DNA from: a bacterium
GTDB lineage: Bacteria; Sysuimicrobiota; Sysuimicrobiia; Sysuimicrobiales; Segetimicrobiaceae
NCBI GenBank assembly: GCA_035295165.1
Contig: DATGJN010000114.1
Coordinates: forward strand, 12,501 to 64,029
DNA: 51,529 nt
Direction: 5' to 3'
Part shown: one piece after another, positions 18,661 through 30,397 of the stretch
How the letters are laid out: each line of letters starts with the position of its first letter
Numbering within the stretch: the stretch's first letter is position 1
Made by a program: the position numbers and the translations under genes
Notes under the pieces: generated by a model
The model's database searches: none
What the model saw: the letters and a program-made list of their open reading frames with translations, nothing else
Told to the model about the DNA's origin: nothing

Positions 18661-18675
18661 AATGTTCGTGTTTTC
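18661..18675 (-). repeat. PurBox-like repeat copy 1, in the purD leader
   Basis: AATGTTCGTGTTTTC on the plus strand, GAAAACACGAACATT read in the direction of the purine operon. An identical copy lies at 18757-18771. The core CACGAACATT resembles the Bacillus PurR box as I recall it (AWWWCCGAACWWT), with 11 of 13 positions matching. This copy is also flanked by CGGAAA and TTTCCG, which could form a 6-bp hairpin in the leader RNA. The position, about 35-50 bases after the predicted start of transcription, suits a repressor site. Confidence 0.55.
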
Positions 18676-18756: not shown

Positions 18757-18771
18757 AATGTTCGTGTTTTC
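18757..18771 (-). repeat. PurBox-like repeat copy 2, upstream of the purine promoter
   Basis: The same 15 bases as at 18661-18675, in the same orientation, 96 bp apart start to start. This copy lies 11 bases upstream of the -35 element, a place where PurR-type regulators act. It also covers the ATG at 18758, the most upstream possible start of the divergent fabF gene. That argues that fabF really starts further downstream, or that both directions share control. Confidence 0.55.
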
Positions 18772-20086
18772 GCCTCCGGCCATTGCCGACGGCAAGGAAA
18801 CCCAGACACCGTGGCGAAGGTTGCACCACGTCTCGCTCGGAGGCCTCGCGGTACGCGCCGTCATTACAGGGATTGGAGCGCTCACGCCTGTGGGGCTGTC
18901 GGCTCCCGAAACGTGGGCCAATCTCCTGGCGGGTCAAAGCGGGGTTCGTCCGCTCACTCGCTTCGACGCCTCGCGCTACCCCGTTCGGATCGCGGCGGAC
19001 GTGCCCGGGTTTGACCCGCTGTCCGTTCTCACCCGCAAGCGGGCGCGCCGGACCGCCCGGTTCGCGCAGTTCGCGATCGCGGCGGCCCACGAAGCGCTGC
19101 GCGACGGCGCCCTCACGCTCACGGATGATCTCCTCGATCGCGTCGGGGTGACGGTGGCGACCGCACTCGGCGGGATCGACGTGATCGACGCCGAAGCGCC
19201 GCACCTCTATGGCGGCGAACCCGACCGGGTCACGCCGTTCCTGCTTCCGATGCTGATCGCGAACATGGCGTCGTCCGCCGTCAGCATTCACTTCGGCATC
19301 CGGGGACCGTCCAACACGTCCGTCGGCGCGTGCGCCAGCGGGGCGATCGCGCTCGCCGAGGCCCGCCGGTGGATCCTCGACGGCGACGCCGACTACGTGC
19401 TCGCCGGAGGCACCGAAGCGGCGCTCACCCCGTCGGTGTGGGCCGCACTGTGCTCGCTCGGCGCGCTCAGCACGCGCAACGACGCGCCGGCGCAGGCGAG
19501 CCGGCCGTTCGATCGGGATCGCGACGGGTTCGTGTACGGCGAGGGCGCCGTGGTGTTTCTGGTCGAGCGGGAGGACGTGGCGAGACGCCGCGAGGCGCGC
19601 ATCTACGCCGAGCTCGCAGGCGCCGCGCTGACGAGCGACGCCTACCACGAAACCGCGCCGCGCCGCGACGGCGACGTCGCGGCGCGCGCGATCCGCCAGG
19701 CGCTGCACAGCGCCGGCGCGAGCGCGGAGGAGGTCGACCTCGTGGTGGCCCACGGCACCGGGACGCCGCTCAACGACATCGCCGAGACCGTCGCCATCAA
19801 GCAGGCGCTCGGAGCCCGCGCGCGGACGACCCCGGTCAGCGCCCCGAAGAGCATGGTCGGCCATCTGATCGGCGCGGCGGGCGCGCTCGCGGCCCTCGTT
19901 GGCGTGCTCGCGATCCACACGGGTGAGATTCCCCCCACGATCAACCTCGACCACGCGGACCCCGTCTGCGACCTCGACTATGTCGCCCTCATCGCGCGCC
20001 GCGCGCACGTGCGGCTCGCCGTCGCGAACGCGTTCGGGTTCGGCGGTCAGAACTGCGTCGTCGCGGTCCGCGCCCTGGAGCGGTAG
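18758..20086 (+). CDS. fabF: beta-ketoacyl-ACP synthase II (FabF-like)
   Basis: Condensing enzyme of fatty-acid elongation with the complete Cys-His-His triad: Cys192 in TSVGACASG, His332 in [11 protein letters not shown] and His369 in [15 protein letters not shown] (numbering from the ATG at 18758). [14 protein letters not shown] marks the usual N-terminus and the C-terminus NAFGFGGQN is intact. The start is uncertain. The ATG at 18758 adds 31 residues that FabF proteins lack and has no ribosome site. A TTG at 18821 has poor spacing. The best Shine-Dalgarno, GGAGG at 18839-18843, is followed 7 bases later by GTA at 18851, which would give 411 residues, the normal FabF length. It is the first gene of a plus-strand acyl-metabolism cluster and diverges from the purine operon. 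Confidence 0.9.
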
Positions 20087-20219
20087 GACCGGCCGCCCGC
20101 GCCACCGAACTGCATCTCGAGATTCCCTCGTCCCTCGACCCGACGATCTTCCAGGGTCCCTCCCGCGCCGTCGCGGCGCCCGGGGCGGTCCTGAGACGCA
20201 GACAAGAGGGGGCGAAGCC

Positions 20220-21029
20220 GTGTTCGACGGAACGTTTGCGGGACGGATTGCGCTCGTCACGGGCGCCTCCCGTGGGATCGGCCGGGCGACGGCGGAAACG
20301 CTTGCCGGAGGCGGCGCGGACGTCGTGGTCCACTACCACCGCAACAAAGTCCTCGCCGAGGAGGTGGCCCACGGGATCGTTGGCCGCGGCCGCCGCGCGC
20401 TCGCCGTCGGGGCCGACCTGGAGAAACCGGAGGAGATCGACCGGCTCTTCGACGAGGTCGCGTCGCAGCTCGGTGCGCTCGACTTCTTCGTCGCCAACCA
20501 CGCGGCCACGGCGTTCAAGACCACGCTCGACGCCAAACCGCACCATCTCCAGCGCACGTTCGATCTGATCGTGCGGTCGCTTGTGCTCTGCGTCCAGCGG
20601 GCGGTCCCCTTGATGCAGGGACGCGAAGGGGCGATCGTGACGATCGGCGGACAGGGCACCGTCGAGATGCTGCCGCACTACGCGATCCTGGCGTCGGCGA
20701 AGGCCGCGATGGAGACGTGGACCCGTTACCTCGCCTACGAGCTCGCGGGGCGTGGCATCACGGCGAACTGCGTCAGCCCGGGTGTGATTGCCACGGACTC
20801 CGCGAAGTTCTACGGCGGCGATCGGTTTGCGGAGTTCGACCGCGTGGTCTCGTCGTTCACGCCGCGGGGCCGGATGGGCACGCCCGAGGACGTGGCGGCG
20901 GTGGTCGCGTTCCTGTGCAGCCCCGGCGCGCGCTACGTCCTGGGGCAGACGATCGTGGTCGACGGCGGCCTCGGGCTGGTCTCGGCGCCGTTCGAAGTGT
21001 TCCGCCGACAAGGGGAGGCGCGCGCATGA
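20220..21029 (+). CDS. FabL-like enoyl-ACP reductase (divergent SDR)
   Basis: This 269-residue short-chain dehydrogenase has the TGASRGIG cofactor loop but not the usual Tyr-x3-Lys. Instead it has Tyr154-x6-Lys161 (HYAILASAK), the spacing that defines enoyl reductases of the FabI/FabL group. The ordinary catalytic Ser position reads TIGGQGT. The rest follows Bacillus FabL closely: [15 protein letters not shown], a PRGRM helix and GQTIIVDGG near the end (GQTIVVDGG here). It would reduce trans-2-enoyl thioesters, the last step of each elongation round. The start is GTG at 20220, 9 bases after AGAGGGGG. The end overlaps the next gene as ATGA. It is less certain that the substrate is ACP-bound rather than CoA-bound, given the CoA-transferase neighbours. 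Confidence 0.75.
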
Positions 21030-21889
21030 ACAAGGTGATGAGTACCGAGGACGTGATCGCGCAGATCCCGGACGGGGCGACAGTCGCGATCGGCGGCTCT
21101 TCGCTCTCCCGGAAGCCGATGGCGCTGGTGCGGGCGCTCGCCCGAAGCGATCGCCGCGACCTGCGCATCATCGTCAACGTCGGCGGGCCCGAGGTGGATC
21201 TGCTGCTCGGCATGGGCAAGGTCGCCGAGGTCATCTTTGCGTTCGTCGGGTTCGAGGTGATGGGGCTGGCGCCGCATTTTCGCCGGGCCCGGCAGGAGGG
21301 TACCGTCAAGTTCCAGGAGTGGACAGAGTACACCGTGATGGCGGGGCTGGACGCGACGATCAAACACGTGCCGTTCCTGCCCACCCACTCCACGCTCGGC
21401 ACCGACGTGCTGCGGGTCAACACGGCGTTCAAAACGATCCAGGATCCGTTCGCCGGCGAGACGCTCGTCGCCGTCCCGGCCCTGCGCCCCGACGTCGCGC
21501 TACTGCACGTGAACCTCGCCGATCCCCAGGGGAACGGCGTCGTGCTCGGCGACGGACACATGGATGCGCTGTGCGCGAAAGCCGCGCGCAAGACGTTCCT
21601 GTCCGCGGAGCAGATCCTGCTCCCCGAGCGTCTGCAGACCTACGGGCGCGACGTGCACATCTTCCGGACAATGGTGACCGGCGTCGTCGAAGCCCCGTGG
21701 GGCGCCCACCTGACCGGGTGCGCGCCCGAGTACCGGGCGGACCTCCAGCACGTGCAGGAGTACCTGGCCGCCGCGCGCGACGGCACGGGGTGGCACGAGT
21801 ACCTGGAGCGCTACGTCTACGTGAGTCACCGGGAGTACGTGCGCGCGCTCGGCGGCGAGCACACGCTGGGGGAGCGGCTGCGAGTGTAG
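21026..21889 (+). CDS. class I CoA-transferase, alpha subunit (GctA/IpdA-like)
   Basis: This 287-residue protein of the class I CoA-transferase family has the alpha-subunit layout. [18 protein letters not shown] is the N-terminal CoA-loop region, [12 protein letters not shown] comes next, and later [20 protein letters not shown] is the typical alpha-subunit signature. Members move CoA between acyl groups or, in the IpdAB branch, open rings of steroid-derived acyl-CoAs. The pair here cannot be assigned to one branch by eye. The ATG at 21026 overlaps the reductase stop and follows GGGGAGG. The beta subunit follows after 78 bases, so the two form one enzyme within the fab-like operon. Confidence 0.8.
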
Positions 21890-21967
21890 CGCGCCGCGGT
21901 CGACGCCCCGCACGGGCCTCGGCCGCACGCACCGGACGCAAGCGATGCAGCGAGGGGGGAATCGGCG

Positions 21968-22813
21968 ATGACCGACTACACCATCGACGAGTTGATCATC
22001 ACGTGCATGTCGCGGGAGCTGCGCGGCGAGCTGCTGGTCAGCTCCGTGACCGCGTTTGGATCGCTCGCGGCGCACTTGGCGCGAAGCACGCATGCGCCGG
22101 ACCTGGCGGTGCTCTCGACGCCGGAATCGGGCATGGATGCGGTACCCCTTCCCACCCTCTCGCTCGGCCAGTTCCTGACCGAGAACCAGCGGGCGATCCC
22201 GCTCACGATGGAGGACATCTTCGACGCCATCTTCACCGACCGGTTCCGCATCTGGATCAACCCGGCGCAGATCGACCAGTACGGCAACGTCAACATCTCC
22301 GTGATCGGCCCGTGGGAGAAGCCGAAGGTCGCGCTGGTCGGCGCGCGGGGGATCCCGGAAGACACGAGCCATCTCTCCCAGGGCCTGTACTATCTGACCC
22401 AACACTCGCCGCGCGCTGTCGTGGAGCGCGTGGACTTCATCAGCGGCGCCGGCTACAACCCCGAGCGCCGCCAGACACTCGGCGCGGCTGGTGCGCCGAC
22501 CTGTCTCGTCACCCCCCTGGGCGTGTTCGGCTGGAACCCCGACTCCGGCCGGATGGTCGTGCGGAGCCTGCACCCAGGGGTGAGCCCCGACGCGGTGCGC
22601 GAGGCCACCGGGTTTGCGATCGAGCTCGGGGCCGGCATCCCCACCACGGAACCGCCGACCGCGGAACAGATCGCCATCATCCACGCGGCCGACCCGCTCG
22701 AGGTACGCAAGCTCGAGCTCCTGTCCGGCAAGGAGGCGGCGGAGAAGTTCGCCGTCATTTACGAGCGCGAGCGTCAGGCGCTGCACGCCGCCTGGCCGCG
22801 CCGCCGGCAGTGA
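21968..22813 (+). CDS. class I CoA-transferase, beta subunit (GctB/IpdB-like)
   Basis: This 281-residue partner of the preceding alpha subunit shows the family stretches RIWINPAQIDQYGNVNISVIG, LVGARGIPED, RVDFISGAGYNP and CLVTPLGVFG. In true transferases the catalytic Glu of the beta subunit sits in an ENG-like motif. Here the corresponding region reads STPESGMDAVP, which may keep the Glu. The IpdB-type hydrolases, which lack it, therefore cannot be excluded. An excellent ribosome site (GAGGGGGGA) precedes the ATG at 21968. It is part of the plus-strand cluster between the FabL-like and BadH-like reductases. Confidence 0.8.
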   Translation: MTDYTIDELIITCMSRELRGELLVSSVTAFGSLAAHLARSTHAPDLAVLSTPESGMDAVPLPTLSLGQFLTENQRAIPLTMEDIFDAIFTDRFRIWINPAQIDQYGNVNISVIGPWEKPKVALVGARGIPEDTSHLSQGLYYLTQHSPRAVVERVDFISGAGYNPERRQTLGAAGAPTCLVTPLGVFGWNPDSGRMVVRSLHPGVSPDAVREATGFAIELGAGIPTTEPPTAEQIAIIHAADPLEVRKLELLSGKEAAEKFAVIYERERQALHAAWPRRRQ

Positions 22814-22855
22814 CGCGCGCGCCGGCGAGCACGCCGCGCTGAGGAGATGCGTGCT

Positions 22856-23623
22856 GTGACCGACGCCTCGCTCGCGGGCCGCCGCGCGATCGTCACCGGC
22901 GGCGGACGGGGCATCGGACGAGCGACCGCGCTCAAGCTGGCCGCGCTGGGTGCCGACGTCGCGGTCGTCTCCCGGACCGAGCGGGAGATCGCCGGCGTCG
23001 CCGCCGAACTCCGGGAGCGGGGCGTGCGGGCCGCGGCGGTTCCCGCCGACCTCACGACCTTCGACGCCTGCCGCGCCGCGATCGAGAGCGCCACGCGCGC
23101 GCTCGGCGGGATCGAGATCTTGATCAACAACGCCGGGTGGACGCTCACGAGCGCGTTCCTCGACGAAGATGAGTCGTACTGGCGCCGCGTCGTGGACGCG
23201 AACCTCTGGAGCACCGTGTTCTGCAGCCGGGTCGCGCTCGAGTGGATGGTCGCGCACGGCGGCGGGACGATCGTGAACGTGGCGAGCGACGCCGGGCGCG
23301 TGGGCACCGCCGGCGAGGCGATCTACTCGGCCGCCAAGGGCGGCGTGATCAGCCTCACCCGGTCGCTGGCCCGCGAGATGGCCCGGTACCAGGTCCGTGT
23401 CAACTGCGTGTGTCCCGGTCCCACGGAGACGGCGGTCCTGACCGAGAACCAGAGCGACCCCGCGCACGCCGGGAAGATCGAGCGGATGATCCGATTGATC
23501 CCGATGCGCCGGGTCGCGCAAGCGGAAGAGATCGCCGACGCCGTCGCGTTCTTCTGCACGGACGCGTCGCGCTACATCACCGGTCAGGTGCTGAGCGTCT
23601 CCGGCGGGCTGACGATGGTCTGA
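22856..23623 (+). CDS. SDR family oxidoreductase, BadH/FabG-like
   Basis: This 255-residue short-chain dehydrogenase has TGGGRGIG, the NNAG motif and the standard Tyr157-x3-Lys161 active site. The stretch VNVASDAGRVGTAGEAIYSAAKGGVISLTR, followed by VNCVCPGPTET, closely matches 2-hydroxycyclohexanecarboxyl-CoA dehydrogenase (BadH) and related hydroxyacyl-CoA dehydrogenases. It could oxidise or reduce a 3-hydroxyacyl thioester and may fill the FabG step in this cluster. I place the start at GTG 22856, nine bases after GAGGAG. The ATG at 22847 is directly against the ribosome site and so less likely. It lies 42 bases after the CoA-transferase beta subunit. Confidence 0.85.
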   Translation: MTDASLAGRRAIVTGGGRGIGRATALKLAALGADVAVVSRTEREIAGVAAELRERGVRAAAVPADLTTFDACRAAIESATRALGGIEILINNAGWTLTSAFLDEDESYWRRVVDANLWSTVFCSRVALEWMVAHGGGTIVNVASDAGRVGTAGEAIYSAAKGGVISLTRSLAREMARYQVRVNCVCPGPTETAVLTENQSDPAHAGKIERMIRLIPMRRVAQAEEIADAVAFFCTDASRYITGQVLSVSGGLTMV

Positions 23624-23732
23624 GCTGGCCTCCCGCAGGCCGCAGCCAGCCGCGAAGGAGGCAACGAGTGATCCACAGGACCAGCGCGAGCCGCACCGCG
23701 ACGCCCCGCGTCCGCTCGACGGAGCCCGTGCC

Positions 23733-24797
23733 ATGACGACCGGAGACGCTCCGATCCGAGTCGCGGTCGACTGCATGGGCGGCGACCGCGCGCCGCGGGA
23801 GATCATCCCGGGCGCGCTCGCGGCCGCGCGCGCGCACGGGTTGCACGTCCTGCTCGTCGGCGTGCCCGACGAAATCACACCGCTCCTGCCCGCCGATGTG
23901 GCGGCCCGCCTCGGGTCCGCGCCGGCGCATGCGGCCGAGCGCCCCGGCGTGGAAGTGGTCACGAGCGACCGCGCCGTGCCCGAGGGCGCCCCACCGCTTC
24001 AAACGCTCCGCGCGATGCCGAAGGCGTCGATGTCGGTGACGATGCGCCTCGTTCACGACGGACGGGCGGACGCCGCCGTCAGCGCGGGCAGCACCGGTCC
24101 GACGCTGCTCGCGGCGATCCGTGAGATCGGCATGATCGAGGGCGTGCGGCGCGCGTGCGTCGGCCGGCAGATCTTGGAGATCCATCCGCACACGTTCCTG
24201 ATCGATCTCGGCCCCACGATCGACTGCGAAGCGCATCACCTCGTCGAGTTCGCGGTGATGGGCACGACGTACATGCGCGTGTTCGGCGGAGTCCCAGACC
24301 CCACGGTGGCCCTGCTCAGCAACGGCCGCGAACCCGGCAAGGGCAACAAGGTCGTCAAGCAGGCCGCGGAGCTCCTCGGCCGCAGCGGACTCCGATACGT
24401 CGGGCTCCTCGAGGGACATCACCTGATGGCTGGCGAGGCGAACGTCGTGGTCTGCGACGGGTTTGTCGGCAACGCCGTCCTGAAGACCGTGGAGGGACTC
24501 GGGCGCGAGACCGCGGCGTGGCTCAGGCGCGAGCTCGAGGACGCGCTGCCCCCCGAGCGCCTGGACGCCCTTGCCGTCCGGCTCGTCGAGTGGACGAACC
24601 CGATCGACCTACGGGGCAGCCTGCCGTTGCTCGGCGTGCGCGGCAACGTCGTCATGGCGCACGGCGCCTCCGACCGGGCCGCGATCCAGGCCGCGATCGC
24701 GCAGGCCGTCCAGGCGGTGCGCGGCGGGTTCGTGGAGAAGCTGCGCGCGGCGCTCGCCGAGACCCGCGGGCGCATCAGCCGATCGGGAGCGACGTAG
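23733..24797 (+). CDS. plsX: phosphate acyltransferase PlsX
   Basis: PlsX turns acyl-ACP into acyl-phosphate, the first step of phospholipid synthesis with PlsY. The 354-residue protein has VDCMGGDRAPREIIPGAL near the start, SVTMRLVHDGRADAAVSAGSTGP (the usual SAGNTGA region), and late segments NPIDLRGSLPLLGVRG (commonly YGGAPLLGV) and VMAHGASDRAAI (commonly HGSS). The ATG at 23733 has no strong ribosome site. It closes the plus-strand acyl cluster, 109 bases after the BadH-like gene, and runs convergent with the glycosidase. In many bacteria plsX sits with fabH/fabD/acpP, which are absent here. Confidence 0.9.
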   Translation: MTTGDAPIRVAVDCMGGDRAPREIIPGALAAARAHGLHVLLVGVPDEITPLLPADVAARLGSAPAHAAERPGVEVVTSDRAVPEGAPPLQTLRAMPKASMSVTMRLVHDGRADAAVSAGSTGPTLLAAIREIGMIEGVRRACVGRQILEIHPHTFLIDLGPTIDCEAHHLVEFAVMGTTYMRVFGGVPDPTVALLSNGREPGKGNKVVKQAAELLGRSGLRYVGLLEGHHLMAGEANVVVCDGFVGNAVLKTVEGLGRETAAWLRRELEDALPPERLDALAVRLVEWTNPIDLRGSLPLLGVRGNVVMAHGASDRAAIQAAIAQAVQAVRGGFVEKLRAALAETRGRISRSGAT

Positions 24798-24884: not shown

Positions 24885-26177
24885 TCACACCGATGCCCGA
24901 ATCTTCCGCAGGAGCAGGTCGACCACCAACGCCGCCGTCCACGAGAAATCGCCGCCCCCCAATCCCTCGCCGGTCGACGCGTGAAAGTACTCGCACCATC
25001 CGGCCCGGCGCACGAGATCGATCGTCGCATCCGCGAGGGCGCTGGCGTCATCCCGGAGCCCCAACTCCTCCAACCCGCGGACGACAAACCAGTTCGTGTT
25101 AACCCAGGCGGGGCCGCGCCAGTAGCGGGCCGGCTCGAACTGCGGCTGGTCCGGCAGCACGGTCGGGAGCGGCTGACACCCCCGGCACCGATCACGATAT
25201 CGCCGGTACATCTCCTTGGCCTCACGCACGTCGACCACCCCGGCAAAGACCGCGCCGAGACCGGCGATCGTGTGCACGGGGATACGCCGGCCTGCGCGCA
25301 CGTCGAAGTCCAGAAACAAACAGGACGGCTCGTCCCAGAGTTCCGCCCGATAGGCGTCGCGAAACGCACGCAGCTCCTCCGCCGGCACGTCCGCCGACCG
25401 CCCGAGCGCGGCGGCGATACGGTTCAGATCGAGCGCCGCGCGGTACCAGATCGCGTTGAAGAGCGCATCGTACACGGCAAACGGCGTGTGCGGCAGGAAC
25501 GAGGTCAGCTCGTACCGATGCGCGGCGATCAGCTCCACAAGATACAGGTAGAGGTCGTAGTCGGCGCTGCGGGGCCGCTCCGCCGCCGCCACGACCCCGG
25601 TGTCGTGCCGGGTGTACGCACGGGACGGCCGGAAGCCGCCCTGGGTGGCAAAGTCCCACCTGGGGGCGTTGTCGAGCCCGCTTTCCCAGGGATGCACGAG
25701 CACGATCAGGGGGGACCCGGCAACCGTGCGGTCCCGCGAGAAGAACCGCAGCGCATCGCGCAACGCCTCGTAGATCCGCGCCCACCACGCGTGCCGGACA
25801 CCCGCATTCCGCTGCGCGAGGCCCGCCCAGTACACCGCGGTGGGAAGGACGGGCGGGTGGGAGATGCCGCTCGTCCGCTCCCCGGCCCGCCGCACCGGGA
25901 CATCCGGCCACCACTCCGGCCCGGGGAAATACCCGCTCACCCCGGGGTTGTAGTGGATGTGCGGCAGCATGCCGTTCGCCCACTGCGCGGCCAGGAGCGC
26001 ATCGACCTCCCGCTCCATCCGCGGCCAGTCCAGGTGCGCGAGGGCGAGCGCCACGAACGCGCTGTCCCAGTTCCACTGGTGCGGGTACAGCCGCGGGCTC
26101 GGGCGTGTGTAGTCGCCCATGTCGTTCCGGCGCAACACAGCGAGCGCCTGCGGGATGAGATCGGGCGTCGCGACCAC
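24885..26177 (-). CDS. MGH1-like glycoside hydrolase (GH63 type)
   Basis: This 430-residue (alpha/alpha)6-barrel glycosidase resembles the mannosylglycerate/glucosylglycerate hydrolase branch of GH63. QWNWDSAF (about 34-41), ANGMLPHIHY, LVHPWESGLDNAPRWD (about 160-175), YWRGPAWVNTNW and the final FSWTAAL are the family landmarks. They include the acidic pair expected for an inverting mechanism. There is no signal peptide, so it acts in the cytoplasm, probably on the glycoside imported by the ABC system encoded upstream. The start is GTG at 26177, 8 bases after the ATPase gene. The exact substrate (mannosylglycerate, glucosylglycerate or another alpha-glycoside) is inferred, not shown. Confidence 0.8.
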   Translation of the reverse strand: MVATPDLIPQALAVLRRNDMGDYTRPSPRLYPHQWNWDSAFVALALAHLDWPRMEREVDALLAAQWANGMLPHIHYNPGVSGYFPGPEWWPDVPVRRAGERTSGISHPPVLPTAVYWAGLAQRNAGVRHAWWARIYEALRDALRFFSRDRTVAGSPLIVLVHPWESGLDNAPRWDFATQGGFRPSRAYTRHDTGVVAAAERPRSADYDLYLYLVELIAAHRYELTSFLPHTPFAVYDALFNAIWYRAALDLNRIAAALGRSADVPAEELRAFRDAYRAELWDEPSCLFLDFDVRAGRRIPVHTIAGLGAVFAGVVDVREAKEMYRRYRDRCRGCQPLPTVLPDQPQFEPARYWRGPAWVNTNWFVVRGLEELGLRDDASALADATIDLVRRAGWCEYFHASTGEGLGGGDFSWTAALVVDLLLRKIRASV

Positions 26178-26185
26178 GGTGCCTG

Positions 26186-27277
<1,092 letters not shown>

Positions 27278-27344
27278 GTCACCACCCCGTCCGTTGTCAC
27301 ACACGCGCCCGCGCGTCCCGCGCGGGCGTCGAGTCACCCCGGGA

Positions 27345-28160
27345 TCAGCGGACTGTAACCCCCCACAGCGTCAACAGGTAGCGGCGGATCAACAGCATGA
27401 TCACCAAGGCAGGCACGATCATGAAGAACCCGCCGGCGAACCGGTAGTCCAGCGGCGCGCCGCCGCCGCCCCCCATGACGGCGCTCAGGATCAGCGCCGG
27501 GAGCGTCCGGTGATCGACCGTGAGGATCGTGGCCGCGAACACCTCGTTCCACGAGATGATAAAGGTGAAGATCCCGGCCGCGGCCAACCCCGGCAGCGCC
27601 ATCGGCAGCGTAATGCGCAGCACCGCCTGCAGGCGGCTGCTGCCGAGCGTCATCGCCGCCTCTTCCAGCTCGTACGAGATCGCCACGAAGATGCCGGTCA
27701 CCATCGTCATCACGAACGGTACGGCGAGCGCGGTGTGGACCAGCGCCACGCCGACGAGCGTGTCGTAGAGGCCCCAGCGAATGAACGCGACCGCCAGCGG
27801 AATCGCGAGGATCGTGACCGGGAACATCTTCGTGGTCAGCACCAGCAGCTGCACGGCGTCCCGCCCGCGGAATCGGAACCGCGCGATCGCGTACGCCGTC
27901 GGCGCGGAGATGACGAACGCGAATCCGATCGTCATGAGCGCCACCTCCAGACTGTTCCAGGTGGACTGGAGGACGTCCGTCGAGTTCAGGAAGGCCCGCA
28001 TCGTGTCGAGCGTGAACCGGGTAGGCCAGATCGGGCGCGGCCACGTGTACAGGGCCTCCCGGGGCGTGAACGCGGCGAGGGTAATCAGGACGAGCGGGAA
28101 CACTACCCACGCGGCGATGAGCGTGACGGCGCTGTAGACGACCAACCGCCGGAACGTCAT
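27345..28160 (-). CDS. ABC carbohydrate permease, MalG-like
   Basis: This 271-residue permease has six predicted membrane helices and the coupling-helix EAA loop read as YELEEAAMTLGSSRLQAVLR, followed by ITLPMALPG. It starts with MTFRRLVVYSAVTLIAAWVVFP, and the ATG at 28160 overlaps the stop of the other permease as ATGA. Together they form the membrane channel of a carbohydrate importer (CUT1 family). The stop lies 67 bases before the ATPase start. Confidence 0.92.
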   Translation of the reverse strand: MTFRRLVVYSAVTLIAAWVVFPLVLITLAAFTPREALYTWPRPIWPTRFTLDTMRAFLNSTDVLQSTWNSLEVALMTIGFAFVISAPTAYAIARFRFRGRDAVQLLVLTTKMFPVTILAIPLAVAFIRWGLYDTLVGVALVHTALAVPFVMTMVTGIFVAISYELEEAAMTLGSSRLQAVLRITLPMALPGLAAAGIFTFIISWNEVFAATILTVDHRTLPALILSAVMGGGGGAPLDYRFAGGFFMIVPALVIMLLIRRYLLTLWGVTVR

Positions 28161-29023
28161 CCGCGTACCTCGCCGGCCCGCGGCCGGAGCACGCGCAGAT
28201 ACGTCCAGGTGAACGCGGCCGAAAGCAGGAGGATCAGCGTGCCGTAGGCGCTCGCCACGTTCGGGTTGCGGTACAGCGCGTACCACAGATAGGACTCGCC
28301 GGCCAGCACGGGCACCAGGCGCCCGGTCAGCATCATGACGGTCGCGAACACCTCAAACGCGAGGATCGTGCGGATGATCAGCGCCGTCTGCAGGCTGCCG
28401 CGGAGCAGCGGAAGCGTCACGTGCCGGAGCGTCTGCCACGGGCTGGCGCCGAACACCTGCGCCGTCTCCGCATAGTCCTTCGGGATCAGCTGCAGGCCGC
28501 TCAGCAGGATCAGCATGACGATCGCCGTGGCGCGCCACACCTCCGTGAGGAGAATCGCCGCGAACAGCCAGCCCGGTTGATCGTAGGTCAGGTAGGGGCC
28601 CGGCTGCGAGATCCAGCCGACCGCGGACAGCAAGGCGTTGAGGTAGCCGCGTTCCGTGAAGATCGAGAGCCAGATCAGCCCGGCCGCAAGATCCGAAATC
28701 CCGATCGGCACCGCGCAGAGATAGAGAAAGATCGTGTGTCCCGCAAAGCGCGTCTGGACCAGCATCGCCATCGCGAGGCCGAGCGCGATCTGCAGGGGAA
28801 TGGCGATCGCGGTGATCAGGAGCGTGTCGCGGACCGCGGGAAGGAAGTAGAGGTCCGACGTCATTCGTTGCACGTGCTCGAGCGTCAGCCGCCCGGTCTG
28901 CGCGTTGGTGACCCCGAGGACAAACGCCTGCACCATGGGGTAGACGACGAACACGCCAAGGAACGCCAACGTGGGCAGCACCAGCAGGTACGGGAGCCAC
29001 GCCGTTCGCCTGGATCGGGCCAC
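28157..29023 (-). CDS. ABC carbohydrate permease, MalF-like
   Basis: This 288-residue permease has six to seven predicted helices. The first follows a short basic N-terminus (RSRRTAWLPYLLVLP), as in the MalF/UgpA group. The EAA loop reads DYAETAQVFGASPWQTLRH followed by VTLPLLRGS. It has no large periplasmic insert like that of E. coli MalF. The GTG start at 29023 is 24 bases after the binding-protein gene. The ribosome site is weak. It pairs with the next permease through a 4-base overlap. Confidence 0.92.
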   Translation of the reverse strand: MARSRRTAWLPYLLVLPTLAFLGVFVVYPMVQAFVLGVTNAQTGRLTLEHVQRMTSDLYFLPAVRDTLLITAIAIPLQIALGLAMAMLVQTRFAGHTIFLYLCAVPIGISDLAAGLIWLSIFTERGYLNALLSAVGWISQPGPYLTYDQPGWLFAAILLTEVWRATAIVMLILLSGLQLIPKDYAETAQVFGASPWQTLRHVTLPLLRGSLQTALIIRTILAFEVFATVMMLTGRLVPVLAGESYLWYALYRNPNVASAYGTLILLLSAAFTWTYLRVLRPRAGEVRG

Positions 29024-29047
29024 CGGTCCGTCGCGGCCGAGAACCAG

Positions 29048-30397
29048 TTAATCCAGCTTGCAGGGCGTGATCGCCGGGTCTGGCGGCGGGCACACCGCGT
29101 TTTGCGCTCGGTACAGATCTTCCAGCTTGCGGCCCTGATCGTTGAGCACGTCCTGGATGTTCTTGCCCTCGACGGCGATCAGCCTGAACGTGTCGGCGTA
29201 GATCGGGACGAACTCGCCGGTCCGGGCGCCCAATCCCACGGGCAGCAGCGCCGTGTGCGCGTCCGGGGCACCCGCCTGCGCGGAGACGCCGTCCGCGACG
29301 ACCTTCACCCACCCCGAGCTCACGGTCTTCGCGACTTCGGGCGACACGGGGAAGAACCCGTCGCCCTCGAGCGTGGTCAGTTGGGTCGACGGCCGGGTGA
29401 GGTACTCGATCAGGCGCGCCCCTGTGTCCGGGTCCGGGGCGTTCTTCGGGATCGAGAGCCCCACGATCACCGAGAGGAACGACCGTCCCCGCGGCCCCGC
29501 CGGCGAGGGCAGGATGACAAAGTCGTCGGGCCGCTGGCGCACGGCGGGGATCAACCGCGCGGTGTGATCCCACGCCACCCACACCTCGCCCAGCAGCAGC
29601 GGTTCGTACATGAACTCGTAGGTGAACGACGACGGGTGCGTAACGCCCCAGAGCTGCCGGAGGTACCGCCACATCGCCACGGCGTCGGGAGACTTGAACC
29701 GCTTGACCTGGGCGCCGGTAAACGACGGGTACGCATAGCCGTGGATGAACCGGCCGTACAACCCCTGCGGGCCGACCGGGAACCCGAGCCGGCGCTGCCC
29801 GGTGGCCTGCTGGATCGCCTGTCCCCACTGGAAGAGGTCGTCGTACGTCATCCGCATCGGGTTACGGCCCTTGGGGAAATACTGCAGCGACGCCTTCGTA
29901 GCCGCGAAGACATAGGTCGCCTGCATCCACGGGATGAACGCCTGCATCCCGCCCATGTGAGAGGCGTTCAGCAGATCCTTGTAAAATGTGCGGTCTTTCA
30001 TCCCGTCCAGCTGCTTCTGAAGGGGGGCCATGTCCCGCACGATGTTGGAGCTGAGGAGAATCGGATAGATGCCGTGGAGCGCGCCCGTGACGCCGATCGT
30101 GCCGTGCCCCGCCTTGGCCTCGGCCACCAGCCGATCGACGTACGGCCCATCGCCCTCGGCGATCAGCCGCACGGGCACGCCGGTCGCCTTGGTGAACCCG
30201 GAGAGCAGACTCGTCCGGGCCCACTCCTGCTCTTGGATCGGGATCAGCTGGTCCGTCGTGAACACGATCTCGGCGGGTGCCGCACCGAGCGCGGCCGGTT
30301 CGCCCAGCCGTGCCGCGGCCGCAGCGCCGACCAGCGCCGACCCCGCGGCGATGAACTGTCGTCTCGTGAGCCTGCCGGGATGCCGCCGCTCGGACAT
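29048..30397 (-). CDS. Tat-exported solute-binding protein (family 1)
   Basis: The 449-residue protein opens with a twin-arginine signal: LTRRQFIAAG with Arg12-Arg13, an Ala-rich hydrophobic stretch, and possible cleavage after about residue 40 (LGAAPAEIVF). The mature part has the two-lobe binding-protein look, with FTTDQLIPIQEQEW at the start of the domain and a C-terminal tail with two cysteines (VCPPPDPAITPC) that could form a disulfide. Export folded through Tat is common for sugar-binding proteins of this group. ATG 30397 follows GGAGAGGGAG. It is the first gene of the importer operon. No clear promoter was found in the 30398-30584 stretch upstream. Confidence 0.88.
   Translation of the reverse strand: MSERRHPGRLTRRQFIAAGSALVGAAAAARLGEPAALGAAPAEIVFTTDQLIPIQEQEWARTSLLSGFTKATGVPVRLIAEGDGPYVDRLVAEAKAGHGTIGVTGALHGIYPILLSSNIVRDMAPLQKQLDGMKDRTFYKDLLNASHMGGMQAFIPWMQATYVFAATKASLQYFPKGRNPMRMTYDDLFQWGQAIQQATGQRRLGFPVGPQGLYGRFIHGYAYPSFTGAQVKRFKSPDAVAMWRYLRQLWGVTHPSSFTYEFMYEPLLLGEVWVAWDHTARLIPAVRQRPDDFVILPSPAGPRGRSFLSVIVGLSIPKNAPDPDTGARLIEYLTRPSTQLTTLEGDGFFPVSPEVAKTVSSGWVKVVADGVSAQAGAPDAHTALLPVGLGARTGEFVPIYADTFRLIAVEGKNIQDVLNDQGRKLEDLYRAQNAVCPPPDPAITPCKLD

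Follow-up and report, generated by a model that had tools for sequence, protein, structure and literature searches.

What would a bacterium with a complete set of fatty-acid synthesis genes gain from a further ketosynthase and a second PlsX, joined in one operon with two reductases and an enzyme pair of coenzyme A (CoA)-transferase fold? This question is raised by a stretch of DNA of 51,529 nucleotides (hereafter, the window; positions 12501-64029 of contig C114) in the 4.79 Mb draft genome of a member of Ca. Segetimicrobiaceae (phylum Sysuimicrobiota), whose members are uncultured soil bacteria. The six co-directional genes that a preliminary description had listed on its forward strand (18758-24797) were all found in place and encode, in this order, a FabF-type ketosynthase (KS2), a FabL-like short-chain dehydrogenase/reductase (SDR1), two subunits of an enzyme of glutaconate CoA-transferase (GCT)/IpdAB type (CtA and CtB, together CtAB), a BadH/FabG-like reductase (SDR2) and a diverged PlsX paralog (PlsX2). 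The labels FabL, BadH and PlsX name the nearest families only, each gene scoring below the curated cut-off of that family, and "CoA-transferase" applies to CtAB at the level of fold. Our tentative answer, held at somewhat less than even confidence, is that this is a family-specific accessory acyl-chain operon, which may build an unusual acyl chain from a CtAB-activated acid and pass it as acyl-phosphate to lipids.

Conservation of the six-gene operon

Orthologs of CtB (78-89% identity) occur in 10 of the 11 other family genomes searched, the exception being a genome of 64% completeness; the next-best matches are paralogs with at most 39% identity. The order KS2-SDR1-CtA-CtB-SDR2-PlsX2 is identical wherever the locus was recovered, namely in ten other family genomes (one fragment, L051, holds the operon alone), and the operon is absent from sister families. 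Most neighboring genes within it are separated by a short gap or show a start-stop overlap, as in the case of the SDR1 stop and the CtA start (ATGA). The pairwise ratio of nonsynonymous to synonymous substitution rates (dN/dS) between the window and a relative (L043) ranges from 0.07 for CtA to 0.19 for PlsX2, with purA, purB and purE at 0.09-0.12; judged by these ratios, the operon genes are evidently under strong purifying selection. Given the constant order in ten out of ten genomes, the close spacing and the low dN/dS, the arrangement is not due to chance. Orthologous loci are also present in metagenome-assembled genomes labelled "Terrabacteria group bacterium ANGP1", which at NCBI corresponds to Candidatus Segetimicrobium genomatis of the family Segetimicrobiaceae.

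Standard fatty-acid synthesis elsewhere in the genome

Family searches of this genome, on which all genome-wide statements rest, located a plsX-fabD-fabG-acpP-fabF-rnc cluster on contig C104, FabH (above the TIGR00747 cut-off) amid acyl-CoA genes on contig C66, three FabZ and, on contig C61, FabI; FabK was not found. The genome-wide absence of fabH contemplated in the preliminary description is thus contradicted, FabH being only displaced from the plsX-fabD slot. The same description had named two findings that would speak against its reading, a complete standard fab set elsewhere and a lack of conserved gene order; the former was indeed found, whereas the order is fully kept in the family. 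Since the standard fab genes are complete elsewhere and the order is conserved, the operon is an addition to ordinary fatty-acid synthesis rather than its substitute. A replacement of missing fabH by the operon is ruled out by FabH on C66, and a role of SDR1 as the sole enoyl reductase by FabI on C61.

Like the type II cluster plsX-fabH-fabD-fabG-acpP-fabF, the operon brings together a FabF-type ketosynthase, SDR-type reductases and PlsX; unlike this cluster, it is devoid of fabH, fabD and acpP and contains the GCT/IpdAB-type pair and the FabL-like SDR1. At the canonical plsX-fabD junction (as seen in L070, L073 and L010) the fabH slot is empty in the genus of the window and in one other genus; in other family members the slot is ~1 kb long, and in L071 it encodes FabH.

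KS2 and PlsX2 as separate lineages

KS2 scores 494.2 bits against the FabF equivalog TIGR03150, barely above the cut-off (493.75), and retains the catalytic Cys (GACASG), His (AHGTGTP) and Lys and His (KSMVGH). E. coli FabF and FabI and B. subtilis FabL served as the sequences for comparison; the known motifs of FabF and FabL aligned in register, and the FabI query gave one clear ortholog in most genomes. At E. coli FabF Gly107, Ile108, Phe133 and Phe202, which we take to be acyl-pocket positions, the changes G107A, I108L, F133L and F202L are found in all eight full-length family copies compared (E. coli numbering), so that KS2 departs from the usual FabF pocket. The same eight copies share M269E at a gating-loop position. 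Within the family KS2 orthologs are 74-88% identical, and in the tree they cluster together with good support on a long stem, separate from the canonical FabF proteins included. A BioZ-like synthesis of pimelate from GCT-supplied glutaryl-CoA was considered but is not favored, KS2 being of the FabF type with no bio gene nearby.

PlsX2 carries the PF02504 domain and reaches 227.5 bits against the PlsX equivalog TIGR00182, short of its cut-off (243.4). It is ~43% identical to the canonical PlsX of its own genome and retains most canonical PlsX invariants, several being altered (e.g. DVGAN to DLGPT). Among 386 genomes, PlsX2 orthologs (at least 71% identity) were found only in Segetimicrobiaceae, the rest of the matches (~44%) being canonical PlsX; in the tree, the PlsX2 proteins, too, cluster with good support, and a long stem sets them off from the canonical PlsX included. 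Each high-completeness Segetimicrobiaceae genome has two PlsX, and sister families have one or none. No PF02504 match was detected in five sister-family genomes that are 94-99% complete (G015, G019, G022, G023 and G026).

The two reductases

FabL is both the top NCBIfam match of SDR1 (218.5 bits, below the cut-off of 328) and its best PDB match (3OIC). SDR1 shares with FabL a Y-x6-K motif (Y154-x6-K161; YAILASAK and variants), present in 11 of 11 copies; this motif has been described for FabL (PMC9260719), with the same spacing in FabI and FabL. SDR1 differs from FabL in having Gly in place of the usual SDR catalytic Ser in all copies, leaving the Asn-Ser-Tyr-Lys set of FabL incomplete. The combination of Y-x6-K with this replacement speaks against a simple ketoreductase, and SDR1 is a probable NADPH-type enoyl reductase.

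SDR2 falls well short of the TIGR03206 (BadH) cut-off (239.1 versus 431.2 bits). All of its copies have the YxxxK motif, and FabG-type 3-oxoacyl-ACP (acyl carrier protein) reductases make up most of the solved chains closest to it. Both SDR1 and SDR2 have Arg in the TGxxRGIG motif, which is typical of NADPH-using SDRs.

A related module in Bacillota

Sulfobacillus and other genomes labelled as Bacillota also contain CtA (58-70% identity), CtB and SDR2, and many of them SDR1 (53-61%) as well; the usual order is ECH-DECR-(SDR1)-CtA-CtB-SDR2, where ECH stands for a PaaG-like enoyl-CoA hydratase and DECR for a 2,4-dienoyl-CoA reductase. The shared genes are thus homologous and in the same order as in Segetimicrobiaceae, and the Bacillota version differs from the operon in its upstream ECH and DECR genes and in lacking a ketosynthase and PlsX. 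Considering this recurrence together with the KS2 and PlsX2 trees, SDR1-CtA-CtB-SDR2 forms a wider module, which KS2 and PlsX2 have joined only in Segetimicrobiaceae. The CtAB proteins of Segetimicrobiaceae and Bacillota fall on separate sides of their tree with moderate support. We found no published name for the ECH-DECR-SDR1-CtA-CtB-SDR2 module. It is present in a compact six-gene form in L120 (4832-9966), L130 (5498-10431) and L134 (4201-9278), with no ligase or thiolase adjoining. In L124, L126, L129 and L138, CtAB orthologs (~65-67% identity to CtA of the window) occur apart from the other module genes and adjoin a copper-type P-type ATPase and an alcohol dehydrogenase/quinone-reductase-like gene.

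Omega-alicyclic fatty acids have been reported in Sulfobacillus species (PMC4378227), a circumstantial tie of the module to cyclic fatty acids. This leads to an alternative that we regard as fairly unlikely, namely that the SDR1-CtA-CtB-SDR2 core serves to produce or process a short acyl-CoA of alicyclic or unsaturated structure (e.g. a cyclohexanecarboxyl-CoA-like starter), which in Segetimicrobiaceae KS2 and PlsX2 would elongate and load into lipids, yielding fatty acids with an omega-alicyclic or otherwise modified terminus. Besides the Sulfobacillus report, the PaaG-like hydratase and 2,4-dienoyl-CoA reductase next to the Bacillota core form a set suited to isomerise and saturate a ring acid, the family nearest to SDR2 (BadH) is a 2-hydroxycyclohexanecarboxyl-CoA dehydrogenase, and F133L and F202L are small-for-large changes in the KS2 pocket. 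On the other hand, no ortholog of the dienoyl reductase was found in Segetimicrobiaceae genomes (best match 43%), and the operon holds no ECH (ECH elsewhere in the family genomes was not searched for); BadH scores lie far under the cut-off, and some Bacillota have CtAB with none of these partners.

The CtAB pair

CtA is 82-92% identical within the family, and its closest solved relatives are IpdA, followed by AibA and GCT. CtB, scoring slightly under the Pfam CoA_trans cut-off, has profile matches to IpdB, GCT-B and AibB, and its predicted fold (pTM 0.78) matches 6con_B and 1poi_B with E ~1e-19. The pLDDT of the CtB model was 78 with a 20-sequence alignment and 37 with nine near-identical sequences. 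By sequence and by predicted fold, the pair thus has the two-subunit fold of GCT (PDB 1POI). An ESG motif is likewise invariant in CtB, and the profile aligns its Glu (Glu53) with Glu54 of GCT; yet a two-residue insertion precedes the motif, leaving Thr at the ungapped position of GCT Glu54 and Glu two residues further on, and model confidence at this site is low. In view of this shift, Glu53 is only a candidate for the nucleophile known from GCT.

The closest solved relative of CtAB is IpdAB of actinobacterial steroid degradation, in which the nucleophile Glu54 of GCT is replaced by Gly (Gly57 in RHA1 IpdB; PMC5380842). Bacillota CtAB, too, lie near SDR and crotonase genes. As distinct from IpdAB, the ESG motif of CtB is found two residues past the position of RHA1 Gly57, and the operon has no steroid-ring genes. 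A plain IpdAB steroid hydrolase is unsupported by the context, where the neighbors are KS2, the SDRs, PlsX2 and the pur and gro genes, with no KstR2-type neighborhood.

The relationship to IpdAB nevertheless suggests a catabolic unit, in which CtAB would hydrolyse ring or beta-keto acyl-CoAs in the manner of IpdAB, the SDRs would oxidise or reduce the intermediates, and PlsX2 would act as a phosphotransacylase saving energy as acyl-phosphate. The proximity of CtA and CtB to IpdA and IpdB in sequence and fold, the insertion in CtB (by which Glu53 is perhaps not at the position of the GCT nucleophile) and the rich SDR gene set of the family members agree with it. We nonetheless find it quite improbable: a decarboxylating ketosynthase with an intact active site suggests chain building, genes for a thiolase, an acyl-CoA dehydrogenase, a ligase and a transporter are missing from the operon, the Arg in both SDRs is of the NADPH type, and conservation in every family member is at the housekeeping level.

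Predicted role of the operon

As to the accessory acyl-chain operon, we observed which genes it holds, how well they are conserved and which residues they keep or change, and from these sequence features we infer every reaction step of the following side branch. CtAB would activate or reshape a carboxylic acid as a CoA thioester; KS2 would condense an acyl primer, poorly handled by ordinary FabF, with malonyl-ACP; SDR2 would reduce the ketone, a FabZ encoded elsewhere would dehydrate the product, and SDR1 would reduce the enoyl group. PlsX2 may then convert this special acyl-ACP to the acyl-phosphate that PlsY uses for membrane lipids. The operon would in this way supplement the normal acyl type with a second, which may be branched or alicyclic. 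We count in favor of this role the family-wide order, spacing and dN/dS; the two PlsX in the family and the complete type II fatty-acid synthesis elsewhere; the presence of a condensing enzyme together with a YxxxK reductase and a Y-x6-K SDR; a catalytically complete KS2 with an altered pocket; the invariants kept by PlsX2; and the CtAB and SDR2 orthologs in Sulfobacillus with its omega-alicyclic fatty acids.

Several points weigh against it. The operon does not come with an ACP, a dehydratase or an acyl-CoA ligase of its own, and SDR1, SDR2 and PlsX2 are all under the curated cut-offs of their nearest families. CtAB may be a transferase, a hydrolase or a decarboxylase, its fold being common to all three. 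Because the Bacillota module is without a ketosynthase and PlsX, the core may at first have served a purpose unrelated to lipids. Lipid data for these uncultured bacteria were not found, and the paper describing the phylum Sysuimicrobiota (PMC11604079), when its text was searched, yielded no passage on either fatty acids or lipids.

Still another reading is a small cluster of the type II polyketide kind whose product would be a diffusible metabolite, its starter coming from CtAB and PlsX2 serving as acyl-phosphate donor to a non-lipid acceptor. It would account for the altered KS2 pocket and for a ketosynthase, ketoreductase and enoyl reductase without their own FabZ or ACP, but we hold it to be very unlikely: the operon lacks an ACP of its own as well as any gene for a cyclase, a transporter or tailoring, and its strict family-wide conservation, with dN/dS near that of purine genes, is unusual for a specialised metabolite.

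The interpretation in the preliminary description is partly borne out, and its candidate roles for the operon, CoA-primed elongation for lipids or the synthesis of branched or cyclic acids, are compatible with the gene content. We consider it doubtful, if worth stating, that the operon amounts to a second, CoA-primed route to acyl chains (having a ketosynthase, reductases and an acyl-phosphate synthase to itself) and endows all Segetimicrobiaceae with a new or alicyclic membrane lipid chain by way of a GCT-fold enzyme, a kind not known to take part in lipid synthesis. If the operon does feed a separate acyl chain to membrane lipids, this would show that bacteria are able to maintain a dedicated fatty-acid branch in parallel, equipped with a PlsX of its own and primed via an enzyme of CoA-transferase fold, and a lipid marker would be predicted for a little-studied phylum that is sometimes abundant in soil. 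SDR1-CtA-CtB-SDR2 is now defined as a conserved Bacillota/Sysuimicrobiota enzyme module whose substrate is accessible to biochemistry.

Gene limits, upstream repeat and neighborhood

Table 1. Features of the operon and its upstream region (positions in the window).
Feature	Position	Strand	Description
Repeat copy 1	18662..18675	+	ATGTTCGTGTTTTC, exact match, in the purD/KS2 divergent region
Repeat copy 2	18758..18771	+	ATGTTCGTGTTTTC, 96 bp downstream of copy 1; overlaps the apparent KS2 start
KS2	18758..20086	+	FabF-type ketosynthase; TIGR03150 over cut-off; functional start probably near 18851
SDR1	20220..21029	+	FabL-like SDR, probable NADPH-type enoyl reductase; nearest NCBIfam family FabL
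CtA	21026..21889	+	Alpha subunit, GCT/IpdAB-type enzyme; PF01144 83.7 bits
CtB	21968..22813	+	Beta subunit, GCT/IpdAB-type enzyme; profile and predicted-fold match
SDR2	22847..23623 (or GTG start 22856)	+	BadH/FabG-like reductase; TIGR03206 239.1 bits
PlsX2	23733..24797	+	Diverged PlsX paralog; PF02504 236.5 bits

The apparent start of KS2 is doubtful, as its ATG falls within a conserved 14-base repeat and the conserved protein begins near 18851, where the true start probably lies; GGAGG is found near this position, and relatives show a GTG or ATG start codon there. In the genus of the window the likely start codon position (about 18848-18860) reads GTA or GTC, as opposed to GTG/ATG in relatives. 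The number of ATGTTCGTGTTTTC copies expected by chance is 0.09 (allowing up to 2 mismatches). In relatives the repeat was found at a similar position, with a spacing of 94-96 bp where two copies were detected. Its reverse complement resembles what we take to be the B. subtilis PurR box, and the repeat is a possible candidate operator common to the purine genes and the KS2 operon.

The neighbors of the operon are divergent pur genes and, where the contig is long enough, groEL/groES/tsaD. The interval between PlsX2 and groEL ranges from 0.2 to 5.9 kb across the family, with the operon span steady at ~6 kb, and this variability indicates that the whole region is not simply frozen. The interval is only ~0.2 kb in L046 and L050, and its content differs between genera; in the window (24885-30397), it is occupied by a gene for a glycosidase-like protein and by genes for the ATPase, both permeases and the binding protein of an ABC transporter.

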